Below, piece after piece: positions 12,989 to 39,777 of a stretch of 39,777 nt of DNA. The translations under genes and the position numbers were made by a program. Origin of the DNA: Gracilibacillus lacisalsi DSM 19029 (GTDB taxonomy: Bacteria > Bacillota > Bacilli > Bacillales > Amphibacillaceae); the NCBI RefSeq assembly GCF_000377765.1, contig NZ_KB898677.1, forward strand, positions 48,270-88,046. The letters run 5' to 3'. Position 1 is the first letter of the stretch. Every line of letters starts with the position of its first letter. The notes under the pieces are model-generated. The model made no database searches, was not told the DNA's origin, and saw only the letters and a program-made list of their open reading frames with translations.

Positions 12989-14707
12989 ATGGATATGACA
13001 AAAGTACAGCCAAGATCAGGAAAGCACAATGTAGAAGATCTTGATGCACTAAGAGAAAGTTTCGACTGGGAAGAAATTAAGAAAGACTTTAGCTGGTATA
13101 AAACAGGTAAGGTGAATGCTGCATATGAGGCGATTGATCGCCATGCAGAAAATCCTAACAAAAAAGACCAAGTGGCATTGTTATATTCCGCACCAGACCG
13201 TGAAGAAAGTGTAACATTTGAACAATTAAGCAAACAAAGTAATAAAACAGCAAATATATTTAAAAAGTACGGAATTCAAAAAGGAGACCGCGTTTTCTTG
13301 TTCATGCCAAGAAGTCCAGAGTTTTATGCAAACTTTTTTGGGATTCTAAAAATAGGTGCTATTGCCGGACCATTATTTGAGGCATTTATGGAACAAGCGG
13401 TACGTGACCGTTTGGAAGATAGTGAAGCGACAATGTTAATTACAACACCTGAACTTCTAAACCGTGTGCCTGTTAATGAGTTACCTGATTTAAAGCAAAT
13501 TGTTTTAGTAGGCGGTACAGATAATGTTAAAGGTGATAATTATATTGATTTCGAGGAAGAAATGGCAGAGGCATCTGATGAATTGGATATAGAATGGGTA
13601 GATCGAGAAGATGGTATGCTTATTCATTATACATCTGGTTCAACTGGTAAGCCGAAAGGTGTTTATCATGTGCATAATGCGATGATTCAACACTACGCAA
13701 CAGGTAAATGGGTAATTGATTTTAAAGAGGATGATATTTATTGGTGTACTGCTGATCCTGGCTGGGTAACAGGTACAAGTTATGGGATCTTTGCACCATG
13801 GTTAAATGGTGTCACCAATGTAATTCGGGGTGGACGTTTTTCCCCTGAATCCTGGTATGAAACGTTAGATAAACATAATGTAACGATTTGGTATACAGCA
13901 CCAACTGCTTTACGTAAATTTGTGAGTGCTGGTGAAGAGCAGGTTAAGCAGCATGATTTATCTAGTTTACGTCATCTTTTAAGTGTAGGTGAGCCTCTAA
14001 ATCCAGAGGTTATTACTTGGGCACTGCGTGTACTTGATTTACGCATCCATGATACGTGGTGGATGACAGAAACAGGTGCGATGTTAATTGTCAATCTGCC
14101 AAGCATGGAAATTCGCCCAGGTTCGATGGGGAGACCAATTCCAGGTGTAGAAGCAGCCATAGTAGATAACGAAGGTAATGAATTACCGCCAAATCAAATG
14201 GGGAATTTAGCAATTAAAAAAGGTTGGCCATCGATGATGCGTGCTATCTGGAAGAATCCGGGCAAATATGAGAGTTACTTTATAAAGGATTGGTATGTTT
14301 CAGGAGACAGTGCCTATATGGATGAAGATGGCTACTTTTGGTTCCAAGGTCGTTTAGATGATGTAATCAATACCTCTGGTGAGCGTGTAGGACCTTTCGA
14401 GGTGGAAAGTAAATTGATTGAACATAAAGCAGTAGCAGAAGCAGGTGTTATTGGTAAACCAGATCCGGAACGCGGGGAAATTATTAAAGCATTTATTACT
14501 TTAAATCCAGGTTACGAGGCTTCAGATGAATTATTAGAAGATATTCGTCAATTTGTTAAAACTGGCTTAAGTGCCCATGCAGCCCCTCGTGAAATTGAAA
14601 TTAAAGATAGTATTCCAAAGACACGAAGCGGTAAAATTATGCGTAGGCTATTAAAATCTTGGGAACTAGGCTTACCAACAGGAGACACCTCTACGTTAGA
14701 GGAATAA
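12989..14707 (+). CDS. acsA: Acetate--CoA ligase (acetyl-CoA synthetase)
   Basis: Activates acetate to acetyl-CoA through an acetyl-AMP intermediate, for acetate scavenging. The 572-residue protein is the length of Bacillus AcsA. The P-loop-like YTSGSTGKPKG lies at 214-224, the adenylate region HDTWWMTETGA in the middle, and the hinge GRLDDVINTSGERVG later. The C-terminal KTRSGKIMRR contains Lys549, the residue whose acetylation switches the B. subtilis enzyme off. AGAGAGGTG lies 7 bases upstream. It sits between two germination receptor operons. The acuABC genes that usually accompany it are not in this window. Confidence 0.96.
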   Translation: MDMTKVQPRSGKHNVEDLDALRESFDWEEIKKDFSWYKTGKVNAAYEAIDRHAENPNKKDQVALLYSAPDREESVTFEQLSKQSNKTANIFKKYGIQKGDRVFLFMPRSPEFYANFFGILKIGAIAGPLFEAFMEQAVRDRLEDSEATMLITTPELLNRVPVNELPDLKQIVLVGGTDNVKGDNYIDFEEEMAEASDELDIEWVDREDGMLIHYTSGSTGKPKGVYHVHNAMIQHYATGKWVIDFKEDDIYWCTADPGWVTGTSYGIFAPWLNGVTNVIRGGRFSPESWYETLDKHNVTIWYTAPTALRKFVSAGEEQVKQHDLSSLRHLLSVGEPLNPEVITWALRVLDLRIHDTWWMTETGAMLIVNLPSMEIRPGSMGRPIPGVEAAIVDNEGNELPPNQMGNLAIKKGWPSMMRAIWKNPGKYESYFIKDWYVSGDSAYMDEDGYFWFQGRLDDVINTSGERVGPFEVESKLIEHKAVAEAGVIGKPDPERGEIIKAFITLNPGYEASDELLEDIRQFVKTGLSAHAAPREIEIKDSIPKTRSGKIMRRLLKSWELGLPTGDTSTLEE

Positions 14708-34322: not shown

Positions 34323-34583
34323 ATGAATTGGTGGATTATAGCAGGAATAGTTGTATTAATTGTCATTTTGCTAACGAAAGGAATTCCGGTGAATTTCGTT
34401 AAAGGTAGTGGGCAAGTTGTGATGAAAGTTACAGTTGGTGTTTTATTTCTGTTCTTCTTTAACTTGTTTGGTGCATCTTTTGGATTGCATATACCCATCA
34501 ATGTATTTACAGCGGTGATTGTCGGAATGTTAGGTATTCCAGGCATTGCTTGTTTAACTGCTATTAGTGTTTTTGTTATTTAA
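34323..34583 (+). CDS. bofA: Inhibitor of pro-sigma-K processing BofA
   Basis: A membrane protein of the mother cell that holds the SpoIVFB protease inactive until the forespore signals. The 86-residue protein has an N-terminal hydrophobic helix (3-18), a second segment (about 36-56) and a third C-terminal hydrophobic stretch containing the family block INVFTAVIVGMLGIPG. AAAGGGG precedes the ATG. The gene order yaaL-bofA is as in B. subtilis. A terminator follows. Confidence 0.93.
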   Translation: MNWWIIAGIVVLIVILLTKGIPVNFVKGSGQVVMKVTVGVLFLFFFNLFGASFGLHIPINVFTAVIVGMLGIPGIACLTAISVFVI

Positions 34584-34634: not shown

Positions 34635-34678
34635 CTTCACATAATCCGTATACTGCGCAGTAACGAGGACAAGGAATT

Positions 34679-34888
34679 GCTCTCTTCCGTACTGAATTTA
34701 GATGAGTGCATAATCGTCGCTGCGGAAAAATACTCCCTTTCCGGGGGCACGGCCTCAGCTAACTTTGCAAAGAAAAACACTTGGTGAAGTGCCTTTCTTC
34801 ACCAAGTTAGCTGAAGCCGAGCCCATGGAAAGCGCAGTATTCTGCCGGAGCGTATGTGAGCACTCATCATTAATCAGAATGGAAGAAG
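34679..34888. repeat. Structured repeat, composite head-to-head copy
   Basis: Two 3' halves of the repeat face each other. 34778-34885 is in plus orientation and matches 178-285 with three differences. 34679-34770 is a more diverged 3' half in minus orientation, visible as TGCGGAAAAATACTCCCTTT and GGGCACGGCCTCAGCTAA. The normal 5' half is missing, so the whole is one long palindrome. It fills most of the 480-base gap between bofA and the next gene. Confidence 0.7.
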
Positions 34889-34989
34889 GCCTCACTCTAC
34901 AAAATTTTCATTACTTCACAGTAAGTATCTAAAGCGATAAGAGACGGAATGGGTTTGGTATTATACATGGAAAATTAATTATTTTGATA

Positions 34990-35064: not shown

Positions 35065-35919
35065 GTGTGTATGAAAATGTTACAAAAATCAGCTTATGAC
35101 CTCACCTTTTTTGGCCAACATATAACAGTAGAACCCACTAGCAGGCGAATAAAGGTATATCAACTCCCAATAGCAAAAAATATGGATACTTTTATGGATC
35201 GCTTGCAAAGGCTCTCAAGAGAAACCAATTGCGACAAATTAATTTTTTATGTATTACCTGATAACCAAGAGTTGATGAAGTCTTATAATGCTGATTATGA
35301 AGGTATGATTCAAGGTTTTTTTAATGGTGAAACAGCTCTAATTTATGCTATTTTTCTAAATTCTGATCGTAAACAATCAGTGGATTCAGAAGCAGAGAAA
35401 CAGGTCATGCAAAACATTAAAGAACGAATAAAAGAAGGCTTCACTTTTGGTCTGCCAGAAGGGTATTCGATGAAGTGGGCAGAAAAAAAAGATGCTCCTC
35501 AAATGGCATTGTTGTATAAAACCGTATTTAAATCTTATCCCACCCCTATGAATGATCCTGAATTTATTAAGGAAATGATGCAAAATCAGGTCTATTTCTC
35601 GATTATTGAGAAAGAAGGTTCTGTTGTCAGTGCTTGTTCAGCAGATGTATTGCCTGATTACCAATCAGCTGAACTATCTGATTGTGCAACATATCCAAAT
35701 CATCGCGGCAAACAGTTGTTATCCTACCAAGTATCTTGTTTGATACCAAGAGTAAAGCAATTAGGAATGAATGTATTATTTTCGTATTCACGTTCCGTAT
35801 CTGTAGGGATGAACTTAGTGAATGTGAAACATGGATTTCAATATGGAGGCAAAATGATTCGAAATAGTAATATTGCCGGAAGCATGGAAAATATGAATAT
35901 CTGGTACAAAATACTTTGA
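35065..35919 (+). CDS. GNAT acetyltransferase resembling beta-lysine N-acetyltransferase AblB
   Basis: A 284-residue acetyl-CoA-dependent N-acetyltransferase. The C-terminal GNAT domain (about 135-284) resembles AblB, which acetylates beta-lysine to the osmolyte N-epsilon-acetyl-beta-lysine. Matching blocks are FKSYPTPMNDPEFIKEMM (155-172), CATYPNHRGKQL (207-218) and NSNIAGSMENMNIWYKIL (267-284). The acetyl-CoA loop has Gln217 where Gly or Ala is usual. The partner ablA (lysine 2,3-aminomutase) is absent, so the substrate may differ. Start: GTG at 35065, 5 bases after AGGAGG, or ATG two codons later. It precedes the ATP-grasp gene by 45 bases. Confidence 0.75.
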   Translation: MCMKMLQKSAYDLTFFGQHITVEPTSRRIKVYQLPIAKNMDTFMDRLQRLSRETNCDKLIFYVLPDNQELMKSYNADYEGMIQGFFNGETALIYAIFLNSDRKQSVDSEAEKQVMQNIKERIKEGFTFGLPEGYSMKWAEKKDAPQMALLYKTVFKSYPTPMNDPEFIKEMMQNQVYFSIIEKEGSVVSACSADVLPDYQSAELSDCATYPNHRGKQLLSYQVSCLIPRVKQLGMNVLFSYSRSVSVGMNLVNVKHGFQYGGKMIRNSNIAGSMENMNIWYKIL

Positions 35920-35964
35920 TATCTAACACTCATCATAGAAGAGACAGAAAGGAAAGGGTTAAAG

Positions 35965-37308
35965 ATGACATTTGATTTACCAAATCAAGACACTTCATTC
36001 AAAGTAAATGACCAAAAGGATCGTAAAATGATTCAACAAAAACAAACTGGACCAATAAAACTAAAGCATGTGAAACCTGCGAAAGGGAAGAAAATAGCAC
36101 TTATCGGTTGGAGTATTCCAACAATGGAAGCGATGGATCGTATCCAGCGACCATATATTGTGGTGAGTTTGCCAGAGTTTCAAGACTATGCCGAAAAACA
36201 TCAGATTCCTTTTTATGCTTGGCAATTTGATAAGGATATCGATTATGAGCAAGTATATCAGAAAGCTGAACCACTTTTTCAAGCATTACAGCAACTTGAT
36301 GTTGATCATGCTATTCCATTATTTGAAGAAACAGTGGAATGGGCTGGTGCTTTAAATGCTTATTTTAGACAAGAGCCTAAACTTTTTCACCATTCTATTC
36401 TGTTTCGAGATAAAGCAATGATGAAACGTAGAGCCCATATTGGTGGACTTAAAGTGGGAGTGTTTGAAGAAGTAAACGACAGAGAACAGGTTCGTCAGTT
36501 TTTTCGACGAATCAATGCTTCCTTATTACGTCATCATGAAGAAGATCGTGATCCAATACATGTGAAAGCTTTAAATAAAGCGGGAGCTGCTGGTCACCGT
36601 ATGATTCGGTCGGAAAAAGATATTGATACGAAACTTTCCGATGATAATTTTCCTAGTTTAGTGGAAAGTCATTTAAAAGGAATCGAAGTATCCTGTGAAG
36701 CCTTTATCCATCAAGGAAAATTATTGTTTTTAAATATTACGGAGTATATTGTGTTTGGTTATTCGATGATGGTACCTCCTTCACCAGAGATAGAGAAATA
36801 TCGCCCAGCCATTCGCGAAGAAGTACAAAAGTTAGTGGATGCATTTGATATATCTTACGGTATTATTCACCCTGAGTTTTTTATTACGGATGATGAACAA
36901 GTATATTTTGGTGAAGTAGCATATCGGATTCCAGGTGGTCATATTTTTGACCTTATGCAGAAAACGTATGGATTTAATCCATATGAAGGACATATTCTTT
37001 GTTGTGATCCGAATACACCAGAGGAAAAGTTGAAGGATTTCTTTCCGAAGGAGGATCAATCGAATGGACATGCTGGCAGTTTCTTAGTCTATCCGAAGAA
37101 AAATACAGTACAAGGCGTCAATATTCCTGACGAGTTGGAGGAGCATCCAGGTTTTGATAAACATACATTATTTAAGCCGATGCAAGTAAAGGTACAGGAT
37201 CAAGAGGGGTATGGTAATCATCTGGGGACTGTGTTTTTCCATCATGAAGATCATCAACATGTAAAGCAACCACTAGCCGATTATGTCGAACATGATTTTT
37301 TTCATTAA
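35965..37308 (+). CDS. ATP-grasp family ligase-like protein
   Basis: A 447-residue protein with a possible N-terminal nucleotide fold (KIALIGWSIPTMEAMDRI, 44-61) and a central ATP-grasp domain. Visible blocks are FRDKAMMKRRA (147-157), VKALNKAGAAGHRMI (200-214), SLVESHLKGIEVSCEAFI (231-248) and the metal site GEVAYRIPGG (316-325). Glu317 and Arg321 fit the usual E-x-N-x-R, but the Asn is Ala319. Such enzymes join a carboxylate to an amine through acyl phosphate. The C-terminal 100 residues are His-rich and unassigned. GGAAAGGG precedes the ATG. No substrate can be named. Confidence 0.7.
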   Translation: MTFDLPNQDTSFKVNDQKDRKMIQQKQTGPIKLKHVKPAKGKKIALIGWSIPTMEAMDRIQRPYIVVSLPEFQDYAEKHQIPFYAWQFDKDIDYEQVYQKAEPLFQALQQLDVDHAIPLFEETVEWAGALNAYFRQEPKLFHHSILFRDKAMMKRRAHIGGLKVGVFEEVNDREQVRQFFRRINASLLRHHEEDRDPIHVKALNKAGAAGHRMIRSEKDIDTKLSDDNFPSLVESHLKGIEVSCEAFIHQGKLLFLNITEYIVFGYSMMVPPSPEIEKYRPAIREEVQKLVDAFDISYGIIHPEFFITDDEQVYFGEVAYRIPGGHIFDLMQKTYGFNPYEGHILCCDPNTPEEKLKDFFPKEDQSNGHAGSFLVYPKKNTVQGVNIPDELEEHPGFDKHTLFKPMQVKVQDQEGYGNHLGTVFFHHEDHQHVKQPLADYVEHDFFH

Positions 37309-37411
37309 GAAGCAATATTATTAACGAAGTAAAAATATTGGTGAACAAAGTATAAGAACCGAAAGTTTCTTTGTAAGCCGAGTTTTTCTATTGTAAAGGA
37401 GCGTGTAATGA

Positions 37412-39385
37412 GTGAGTACTGAAGTAGAGACAAATCAATCGGAGACCTTTAAGCAAGCATTACAGGTGATGGAAGAAGCAGTACCATATGCGAAAAAAAT
37501 GTATCAGTCGGATGTTTTACAGGCTGCCGCACGTTTAATGGATGAAGAGGATGGAATGGAAATTCTCTATCAACATGCGGACCGCTTCGATAAAGCTGGG
37601 GTTTTTGAAGGAGGACCGTGGGCAGAGCCTTCTAATCTGGAACCTCGACTGGTTTCAGGTTCTTTAATGGATAGTGGAATGACATCGATTGTGGAAATTT
37701 TAAGTGAACTGCGAATGGTCGCTATTGCTAAAGGGAAGTACAAACATGAGACGGTATCTAAGGATGACGCAAAACATTTTTTGGACGAAGTAATGGCTTT
37801 AAATGTAGATATACTATTTCCGGAAGAGACAGAAGCGGCTAGAATTGAAGGAAAACAAAAAGAAAAAAACAGAGCAGAAAAACTATTTCAATTTTTAGCA
37901 GATAAATTATCACTAGCATCTATTTCCGGTAAGATATTAGAGGAAATTGATGATCTTGTCGCTCAACGTCCGATTATGGTTAACCGCATTGTCAGTATGA
38001 TTAACGATGCTAAGAAGTTATTGAAACAAACGATAGAAGAGAAGGAAAAAAGGGCGATTAAGCGATATGTCAATGCATTGTCAGGTCCAACAAAGAAAAG
38101 TAAAAAATACCAAGATCCCTGTGATTACCGTAAACAGTTAAAGGAAATGTCAGAACAGGAATTGGAAGAAGAAGCAAAAATATTTGCTAAAAGTATGCGG
38201 GAAACAGGGCTCGTCAGCAAGCATCACGTTGTCCTTGTTCGTTATTTAAACCGACATAATCAGAAGCTGCTACCAGTCGCAATGCAATTAAATAATAAAG
38301 GTAAAGCGAATTTAGAGGAATATATCGACATTGTTAGTGATTTAATTACGGTAGCTATTCATTTGCCAATGCGAAAATCTTTATATGGACTTGCTTGTGT
38401 GCTGGAGAGAGGAGTATTGTCCTCCACACCAGTTATTCCTGGTTTAAAAAGGTTGATAGAGCTGGATTTGCAACCAGAGGTTAGGAAAGTTTTGTTGAAT
38501 TCGATCAATGATAATGAAGGAATAACAGCTAATGACATTATGCTTGCTGGGGTAATTAGTGTCCTCGGGCAACCACTTGGAGTTGGTCAAGGGATGAACC
38601 CTACATGTCAAACCGCACGTGGTATTAGCTTGTGGTCATTGCATGCTCCCGGTTATTTGCTGGAATTAATACCTCGAGCGGCAAGAGATGGAGATATTGA
38701 TGTGCAATTTGAAGGACAGACTATACATTCTAAAAACCTCCATGAAGGATTAGTGCAAGATTTACATGAAGAATTAGATCCTGTATCACTTATTTTAGTA
38801 CCTCATCTTGATCGTATATATGGTGAGTTGGTTAGACGATCAGAATTTAGAGGGGATGATGTCCACAAATGGGTCAATCCTGCTTTTTACGGAGATTGGA
38901 TTTCGAGGGGATTTAGCTCCACGATTGATCCGCTGACTGGTTCCGTTGCGGATTACCCTGGATTTGTCCGTCTTTTTTATGCGACACATCATCCAGATTA
39001 CAATAATGGCTATGAATTAATTTATCCAAACCCAGTTGGTATCTTTATAACCAATTCATTTGGAAACCTATTAGGATTGCATGCCGTTTCGATTCAACGT
39101 GTTGCCCGTGATTCTGACGGTAAATACCGTATCTATTTTTATAACCCGAATAATGATAGCGCACAAGTATGGGGGCAAGGGATTACTCCAACAGTTAAAG
39201 GACATGGAGAACTGCCTGGTGAATCTTCATTGCCATTCCATGAATTTGTAGCTAGGCTGTATGCTTTTCACTACAATCCATATGAACAAGGAGACGCATA
39301 CGCAGTAGATAATCAGTATGTAGAAAAAGTGGAGAAGTTAGCAAGAGAAAGCTGGGGAGAGAAATACACTTGGGTGCAAATTTAA
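37412..39385 (+). CDS. Unknown 657-residue protein with possible papain-like C-terminal domain
   Basis: I do not recognise a family. Residues 1-270 are helical, acidic and coiled-coil-like. Residues 330-657 are globular. A possible cysteine-peptidase or amidase site is formed by Cys399 in GMNPTCQTARGISLW, with Gln393 six residues before it, His557 in LGLHAVSIQRV, and Asn578 in YRIYFYNPNND. Order and spacing suit a papain-like or transglutaminase-like fold, but this is inference. There is no signal peptide or membrane segment. It starts at GTG (37412) with AAGGAG 11 bases upstream; the nearby ATG is in another frame. It is the third gene of the module. Confidence 0.6.
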   Translation: MSTEVETNQSETFKQALQVMEEAVPYAKKMYQSDVLQAAARLMDEEDGMEILYQHADRFDKAGVFEGGPWAEPSNLEPRLVSGSLMDSGMTSIVEILSELRMVAIAKGKYKHETVSKDDAKHFLDEVMALNVDILFPEETEAARIEGKQKEKNRAEKLFQFLADKLSLASISGKILEEIDDLVAQRPIMVNRIVSMINDAKKLLKQTIEEKEKRAIKRYVNALSGPTKKSKKYQDPCDYRKQLKEMSEQELEEEAKIFAKSMRETGLVSKHHVVLVRYLNRHNQKLLPVAMQLNNKGKANLEEYIDIVSDLITVAIHLPMRKSLYGLACVLERGVLSSTPVIPGLKRLIELDLQPEVRKVLLNSINDNEGITANDIMLAGVISVLGQPLGVGQGMNPTCQTARGISLWSLHAPGYLLELIPRAARDGDIDVQFEGQTIHSKNLHEGLVQDLHEELDPVSLILVPHLDRIYGELVRRSEFRGDDVHKWVNPAFYGDWISRGFSSTIDPLTGSVADYPGFVRLFYATHHPDYNNGYELIYPNPVGIFITNSFGNLLGLHAVSIQRVARDSDGKYRIYFYNPNNDSAQVWGQGITPTVKGHGELPGESSLPFHEFVARLYAFHYNPYEQGDAYAVDNQYVEKVEKLARESWGEKYTWVQI

Positions 39386-39395
39386 TTCTATTATA

Positions 39396-39425
39396 CCAAG
39401 GGGATTTTTCAACATTTCCCCTTGG
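39396..39425 (+). terminator. Hairpin after the three-gene module
   Basis: CCAAGGGGA (39396-39404) pairs perfectly with TCCCCTTGG (39417-39425). The following sequence is A/T mixed rather than a clean T-run. Confidence 0.65.
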
Positions 39426-39449
39426 AATATATTTCTAACGAATTTACCC

Positions 39450-39693: not shown

Positions 39694-39777
39694 TTTATTG
39701 AGAGTTTGATCTTGGCTCAGGACGAACGCTGGCGGCGTGCCTAATACATGCAAGTCGAGCGCGGGAAGCTTGTCTGA
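39694..39777 (+). rRNA. 16S ribosomal RNA, 5' end (partial)
   Basis: Contains AGAGTTTGATCTTGGCTCAG (39701-39720), then GACGAACGCTGGCGGCG and TGCCTAATACATGCAAGTCG, the universal beginning of bacterial 16S rRNA. It is cut at the window end inside the first variable region. The exact mature 5' end is taken as the TTTATTG block. Confidence 0.97.

Follow-up and report, generated by a model that had tools for sequence, protein, structure and literature searches.

Do three neighbouring genes of Gracilibacillus lacisalsi DSM 19029, encoding an acetyltransferase, an ATP-grasp ligase and a large protein of an unnamed family, form one functional unit, and what could such a unit make? We analyzed a stretch of 39,777 nucleotides from this genome (contig NZ_KB898677.1, positions 48,270 to 88,046 of the forward strand), referred to here as the window, in which the three genes follow each other on the + strand, separated by 45 and 103 bases. 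We denote their products GNAT (a GNAT-family N-acetyltransferase), the ligase, and CYS, which carries a papain-like signature. An earlier note, made from the sequence alone, had placed the three open reading frames (ORFs) correctly and had read them as a three-gene module that makes or remodels an acetylated amino-acid or peptide-like compound, perhaps for osmotic or spore physiology. Homologues of each gene recur in the related loci that we fetched, which argues that all three are real genes. We found that the constant unit is the pair of ligase and CYS rather than three equal genes, and that the GNAT gene became linked to one clade of these pairs. Tentatively, we propose a role of the set in salt adaptation.

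Linkage of the ligase, CYS and GNAT genes

A genome-collection scan yielded 528 stretches encoding CYS relatives, of which the best 80 were fetched as loci. In all 80, the ligase gene was located directly upstream of the CYS gene on the same strand, with identities to the window proteins of 47-97% for the ligase and 54-97% for CYS. In a sample of 397 Bacillales genomes, the ligase subfamily was detected in 62 (E up to 1e-40) and CYS in 63. All 62 ligase genomes carried CYS, and CYS was found directly downstream on the same strand in 64 out of 64 ligase places, at a distance of 24-122 bases between match edges; for this count, a CYS gene matched by the profile in two pieces (in G283) was taken as one place. 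The sole CYS genome without the ligase (G522) held a CYS fragment of 49 amino acids with two stops. In a 398-genome phylum sample, CYS was detected in the window's own genome only.

The pair was spread across many genera, with carriers including Planococcus, Planomicrobium and Salimicrobium. One record titled Chryseobacterium sp. ISL-80 (L083) is probably mislabelled, its ligase grouping with those of Neobacillus and Peribacillus. A megaplasmid of Halomonas sp. PA16-9 also has the pair (ligase 45% and CYS 39% identical, 30 bases apart); other listed plasmid ATP-grasp proteins were at most 27% identical to the ligase. The Halomonas CYS gene (L199:11938-14022) has an apparent frame change near its C-terminal end, which could be an assembly error or a real lesion.

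The pair occurred together throughout, whereas the trio did so only in part: 22 of the 80 loci had a GNAT gene (44-91% identical to the window GNAT) no more than 3 kb from the pair, a count that selection of the best 80 biases toward close kin. It was co-directional and upstream in 16 of these loci and convergent and downstream in 6. Any gene family other than the ligase, CYS and GNAT was found close to the pair in 15 of the 80 loci at most (ORFs of 70 amino acids or more). The neighbourhood conserved across genomes includes all three families, as the earlier note had proposed, but its three-gene module gives way to a two-gene unit, since 43 of the 62 pair genomes have no GNAT of the type found with the pair.

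Such pair-type GNATs were called by a gap in bit score (at least 361.9, versus at most 243 among the matches listed). They were found in 20 of the 397 sampled genomes, 19 of which have both ligase and CYS (12 linked, 7 unlinked), compared with CYS in 63 of 397 genomes overall; the remaining genome, G505, has a pair-type GNAT without the pair. We then constructed a phylogenetic tree of the ligases, labelled by GNAT linkage and not by GNAT presence; this and the other trees were quick ones, built without bootstrap. The ligases of GNAT-linked pairs formed one clade with a long stem, and the tree requires two changes of linkage, most plausibly a single gain and a single loss, the latter in a Thalassobacillus locus (L043). 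H. halophilus AcN7-4 (L023/L060) and H. alkaliphilus FP5 (L022/L063) have two pairs each, one of them GNAT-linked and the other GNAT-free. Bacillus taeanensis has an unlinked pair-type GNAT (L195) and a pair in the GNAT-free part of the ligase tree (L038), which indicates that co-occurrence of GNAT and pair extends beyond the linked clade. A further GNAT-ligase-CYS set from the same genus as the window (L208:9039-13674, G023:C1) encodes a CYS about 70% identical, compared with 85-97% in other same-genus copies.

The three protein families

We searched CYS against Pfam, NCBIfam, PADLOC and PDB as a single sequence, as a family profile and as its C-terminal part, and found no convincing relative in any of them. 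Weak Pfam matches were to DUF7240 (E 0.0012, in 2 of 40 CYS members) and CIS_TMP (0.0041, in one); the C-terminal part had no PDB or NCBIfam match and scattered single-member Pfam matches, the best with E 0.026. The single-sequence phmmer search matched two designed repeat proteins (E 6.8e-5 and 0.003), with no single stretch significant; this relation was rejected because the matches vanished when the family profile was used. Gln393, Cys399, His557, Asn578, Asn580, Asn581, Asp582 and Trp587 were invariant in 89 of 89 CYS sequences, comprising the window protein, 87 from the 80 loci (seven tandem second copies included) and the Halomonas protein. In papain, Gln-x5-Cys, His and Asn follow in the same order and spacing, and a Trp likewise lies near the Asn; at motif level, 'putative cysteine hydrolase' therefore describes CYS fairly, and the Cys/His/Asn set that the earlier note had seen in the large protein stands.

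A second CYS copy, 34-44% identical, follows the pair in seven loci (L058, L059, L072, L080, L083, L085 and L088); these copies are shortened at the C-terminus and retain the invariant Cys, His and Asn. In three fetched genomes, a solitary second copy occurs without an adjoining ligase (L192, L197, L198), each genome also having a paired copy. One of them, full-length (L192:8854-10932), has as neighbours a run of acyl-CoA-type genes and a divergently oriented M20 peptidase gene. A defence-system reading was rejected on PADLOC matches (best E 0.016 for GNAT, 0.014 for the ligase, none for CYS). A phage or viral origin was likewise rejected: no phage record matched, and none of 34 pattern matches in viral contigs was a relative.

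The ATP-grasp core claimed for the ligase was confirmed by PF13535 (29.2 bits, cut-off 27). A profile of 33 orthologues matched two L-amino acid ligases in PDB, 4wd3 (E 3.1e-12), which we take to be RizA of rhizocticin synthesis, and 3vot (BL00235, E 4.2e-6), as well as the phosphoribosylglycinamide synthetase 4dim (E 7e-6). Lys201, Glu304, Glu317, Arg321, Gly324 and Gly325, presumably the ATP-grasp core residues, were invariant in all 33.

The GNAT matched the AblB model TIGR03827 over the full length of the model (236.3 bits, cut-off 205.1) and Pfam Acetyltransf_1 (21.8 bits, cut-off 20.7). Its reported closeness to AblB (beta-lysine N-acetyltransferase) stands at the level of this family model but not of the clade: the window GNAT is 28-35% identical to ablA-linked AblBs of related genomes, and the pair-type GNATs, linked or unlinked (31 rows), formed one clade (SH-aLRT 98) apart from 17 ablA-linked AblBs, a set that leaves out an 18th whose locus was not fetched (G937, contig C8). 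A search of the window's genome for lysine 2,3-aminomutase (AblA), with matches allowed up to E 0.001, found none, and a canonical ablAB reading was rejected for this genome. We also compared 42 genomes, namely all 22 with GNAT-linked pairs and 20 hand-chosen from the 58 other loci; AblA scored over the cut-off in 7 of the 22 and in 13 of the 20. A true ablAB pair and a pair-type GNAT coexist in several genomes.

Candidate roles in salt adaptation

The informative neighbours of the pair are solute genes. Among the 42 relatives' genomes, the ectoine synthase gene ectC was present in 22 of 22 GNAT-linked and 3 of 20 unlinked ones, a contrast that kinship inflates. In two loci, ectC starts 64 bases (L018, the metagenome-assembled genome MES5) and 51 bases (L019, Oceanobacillus senegalensis) after the CYS stop on the same strand, and each of these genomes carries another ectC. 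Each of the other 25 ectC genes has an upstream region similar in coding sequence to those of 24 further ones, the pattern expected of ectABC, and the upstream regions of the two CYS-linked genes are similar to each other only. On the EctC tree, the two CYS-linked proteins were not grouped together and nested among the other 25 Bacillales EctCs; from their placement, the linkages look like two separate recruitments.

In Halobacillus andaensis (L035), genes for a betaine-aldehyde dehydrogenase and a choline dehydrogenase, both above NCBIfam cut-offs, are located behind the set on the same strand, as is an amino-acid kinase with a PUA domain. Eight loci of the Rossellomorea group have, downstream and on the opposite strand, a gene that was identified as a BCCT transporter in one tested representative; this link to salt is weak, since it concerns one group. 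The osmotic part of the earlier proposal gains from these neighbours, namely ectC behind CYS in two lineages, betaine genes at one locus, and ectC in all 22 GNAT-linked genomes examined. Its spore part is disfavoured, as Planococcus, Planomicrobium and Salimicrobium, which are not known to form spores, carry the pair.

We tentatively favour, at somewhat less than even confidence, a biosynthesis set for salt adaptation in which the ligase–CYS pair is the core and the AblB-family GNAT an add-on in halophiles that bear ectoine genes; its substrates and working we infer from sequence. The compound that the set makes or recycles is probably a small protective molecule. GNAT would acetylate the side-chain amine of lysine or ornithine, giving Ne-acetyl-lysine or Nd-acetyl-ornithine. 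The ligase would use ATP to turn a carboxylate into an acyl phosphate and couple it with an amine, so that a neutral amide or dipeptide-like solute results, and CYS, via a Cys thioester, would hydrolyse or transfer the amide, either for remodelling or for clearance when salt falls. In view of the ectoine synthase copy added in two lineages, the acetylated diamino product or a closely related compound could be cyclised there. Because most pairs are without a GNAT, a common amino acid is probably the basic ligase substrate, with use of the acetylated one being a variant of halophiles. A fuller version, which we regard as somewhat unlikely, is that halophilic Bacillales use a new compatible solute of the amide type, in which a stand-alone ATP-grasp ligase has joined an acetylated diamino acid, with the level of this solute set by CYS as a papain-like amidase or transferase and with further cyclisation in two lineages by the recruited ectoine synthase.

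Several observations weigh against the salt-adaptation set. Since 43 of the 62 pair genomes lack a pair-type GNAT, the core chemistry does not need it. CYS is patchily distributed: 9 out of 159 genomes from the window's family carry it, as do 7 among the 17 listed for its genus, so that most kin do without the set; among the pair carriers, Domibacillus, Peribacillus and Neobacillus are not known as halophiles. Adjacent ectC was seen in 2 and betaine genes in 1 of the 80 loci, and the two ectC linkages could possibly be one old insertion followed by gene conversion. Rows of one genus are not independent, and the p-values obtained (2e-72, 9e-16 and 4e-9) ignore kinship. In Paludifilum and Melghirimyces, ablA is present and the linked GNAT is the sole TIGR03827 match in the genome, a point against setting the pair-type GNAT apart from ordinary AblB, and this GNAT may act on beta-lysine there. 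In two genomes (G437 and G514), the unlinked GNAT closes a same-strand run with saccharopine-dehydrogenase-like, aldehyde dehydrogenase, thiamine pyrophosphate (TPP)-enzyme and aminotransferase genes, which may mean another GNAT substrate. This run is shared by L200 and L203 only (two genomes, one family, f7), and its gene families were tested in L200. Reading the two large enzyme genes near some unlinked GNATs as betaine genes was rejected, their families being TPP enzymes and differing aldehyde dehydrogenases.

Published solute chemistry bears on the choice between readings. According to one study, Halobacillus halophilus makes Nd-acetyl-ornithine and Ne-acetyl-lysine as free acetylated amino acids; lysine Ne-acetylation was presumptively assigned to Hbhal_3877 from the genome sequence, Hbhal_3881 is named a potassium channel, and the ornithine Nd-acetyltransferase is called 'so far unidentified' (PMC4187189). 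In L022, L023 and L207, three non-overlapping genes (encoding a 183-amino-acid protein, an M42-type aminopeptidase and a small ORF) lie between an MthK-like K+ channel gene (E 5e-22, tested in L023) and the GNAT gene. Counting gene tags from the channel Hbhal_3881 would make the GNAT Hbhal_3877; this identity, a further point to be set against the salt-adaptation set, rests on gene counting in a strain other than DSM 2266. If it is right, the role of the GNAT is already in print as a prediction. Accumulation of Ne-acetyl-lysine in a Planococcus strain is reported by citation in PMC4685198. Two Planococcus genomes (L073 and L090) had no TIGR03827 match over the cut-off, and another enzyme may make the compound there. 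PMC1224877 describes a further solute, N-acetylglutaminylglutamine amide (NAGGN).

The main rival, rather unlikely in our judgement, is that a free compatible solute (Ne-acetyl-lysine or Nd-acetyl-ornithine) is the product of the GNAT by itself, while the ligase–CYS pair does separate work, e.g., dipeptide turnover, and is only co-regulated. It fits the many pairs without a GNAT, the lack of linkage in 7 of the 19 genomes with both, the GNAT without a pair in G505, and the free acetylated amino acids that H. halophilus makes according to PMC4187189. However, 19 of the 20 pair-type GNATs are in pair genomes, and the long-stem clade of GNAT-linked ligases looks as if the pair changed on arrival of the GNAT.

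That an ATP-grasp ligase is so strictly paired with a protein bearing a papain-like signature would also suit a writer-eraser pair, in which an amino acid attached by the ligase to a protein or cell-wall peptide is taken off again by the cysteine peptidase. Such cycles exist elsewhere, in tubulin tyrosination and in glutathionylspermidine synthetase/amidase. We consider this improbable for the window, as both of the best solved relatives of the ligase carry the name L-amino acid ligase, solute genes make up the informative neighbourhood, and no third gene family is common to the 80 loci as a substrate, the next commonest being the GNAT with 22. The match to 4wd3 would also allow a product of the kind made with the bacilysin and rhizocticin ligases, namely a small dipeptide antibiotic of non-ribosomal origin or a siderophore-like compound, but this is quite improbable given that further gene families recur around the pair in at most 15 of 80 loci and that the pair, unlike most antibiotic clusters, is found across many genera. 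Finally, the canonical Ne-acetyl-beta-lysine pathway with AblB as acetyltransferase is very improbable despite the TIGR03827 score and the Paludifilum and Melghirimyces genomes, because AblA has no match in the window genome and none over the cut-off in 15 of the 22 GNAT-linked genomes, and the GNAT lies outside the ablA-linked clade.

Features of the window and comparison with known systems

The positions of the three genes, the putative catalytic residues and other features are listed in Table 1. The gene preceding the GNAT gene (34323-34583) we take to be bofA-like, and the 16S rRNA starts at 39694, downstream of CYS, in agreement with the rRNA operon that had been placed after the module. 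Between the bofA-like gene and the GNAT gene is a palindromic repeat (34660-34890) with 110 matches in its own genome, many of them the two strands of one place; by these matches it is classed as a dispersed MITE- or REP-like element. The inverted repeat after the CYS stop was absent from the list of terminator-like sites predicted. A sigma-B-like promoter pattern had one match in the window, at 13839, compared with a chance mean of 1.9. An M42-type aminopeptidase gene is located two genes upstream of the GNAT gene in L023 (3951-5009), and also in L022 and L207; the NAGGN osmolyte system includes an M42 peptidase as well, which is possibly coincidence.

Table 1 Features of the window and, in the last row, of two loci with an unlinked pair-type GNAT (L, fetched locus)
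Feature	Position	Strand	Remarks
GNAT-family N-acetyltransferase, sister clade of AblB (beta-lysine N-acetyltransferase)	35065..35919	+	284 aa, GTG start; TIGR03827
ATP-grasp carboxylate-amine ligase	35965..37308	+	447 aa, ATG start; PF13535; nearest solved relatives L-amino acid ligases
CYS, putative papain-like cysteine hydrolase or acyltransferase, unnamed family	37412..39385	+	657 aa, GTG start
Conserved C-terminal part of CYS with putative catalytic set	38519..39277	+	alignment of 13 sequences
Gln393-x5-Cys399 codons, putative oxyanion-hole Gln and nucleophile	38588..38608	+	invariant 89/89
His557 codon	39080..39082	+	invariant 89/89
Asn578-Pro-Asn-Asn-Asp582 codons	39143..39157	+	invariant 89/89
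13-nt inverted repeat directly after CYS stop, possible terminator	39392..39429	+	poor T run; repeat search
Same-strand run: aminotransferase, TPP enzyme, aldehyde dehydrogenase, saccharopine-dehydrogenase-like, small ORF, epimerase-like, unlinked pair-type GNAT	L200:7225-15444, L203:3429-11353		

Each enzyme class in the set is already known. As far as our searches reach, the strictly paired CYS family, the split AblB-like clade and the recruitment of ectC are undescribed, and no description of the ligase–CYS pair was found in open-licence PMC papers. The locus brings forward an unnamed, strictly paired protein family with a putative tie to salt adaptation. It also carries a warning, as TIGR03827 labels these GNATs 'beta-lysine acetyltransferase' even in genomes without a detected aminomutase for beta-lysine. 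For Halobacillus halophilus, it offers a candidate for the Nd-ornithine acetyltransferase named as 'so far unidentified' in PMC4187189. The function of solitary EctC proteins is called unresolved in PMC5924519, and the CYS-linked ectC copies are a testable candidate bearing on it.

Compared with solitary EctC-type proteins, two CYS loci likewise hold an extra ectC outside ectABC, but their EctCs form no clade of their own. The GNAT resembles AblB in length, in scoring above the curated cut-off and in 35 positions conserved in both groups. It differs in forming its own clade, in a window genome without an ablA match, and in fixed Cys191, Gln222, Tyr241 and Phe258, where AblBs mostly have Ala, Leu, Ile and Tyr. 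Like the L-amino acid ligases 4wd3 and 3vot, the window ligase is an ATP-grasp enzyme, and its G-E-x-A-x-R-x-x-G-G stretch is aligned in 4wd3; it belongs to a distinct subfamily with the CYS gene next downstream. CYS keeps the residue order and spacing of papain-like cysteine enzymes such as glutathionylspermidine amidase and phytochelatin synthase, but has a large N-terminal part of about 380 amino acids and no convincing sequence relation to them in Pfam, NCBIfam or PDB.

In working, the set would resemble NAGGN, the precedent for osmolyte synthesis by a GNAT and an ATP-grasp enzyme, which act there with an asparagine-synthetase-like amidotransferase. No model of that system was among the NCBIfam matches of the three window proteins (up to E 1) or of 33 ligases (up to E 0.001). 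Both systems would use a GNAT and an ATP-grasp enzyme for a capped neutral peptide solute; in the window, however, the genes are separate and not fused, and CYS stands in place of the amidotransferase.

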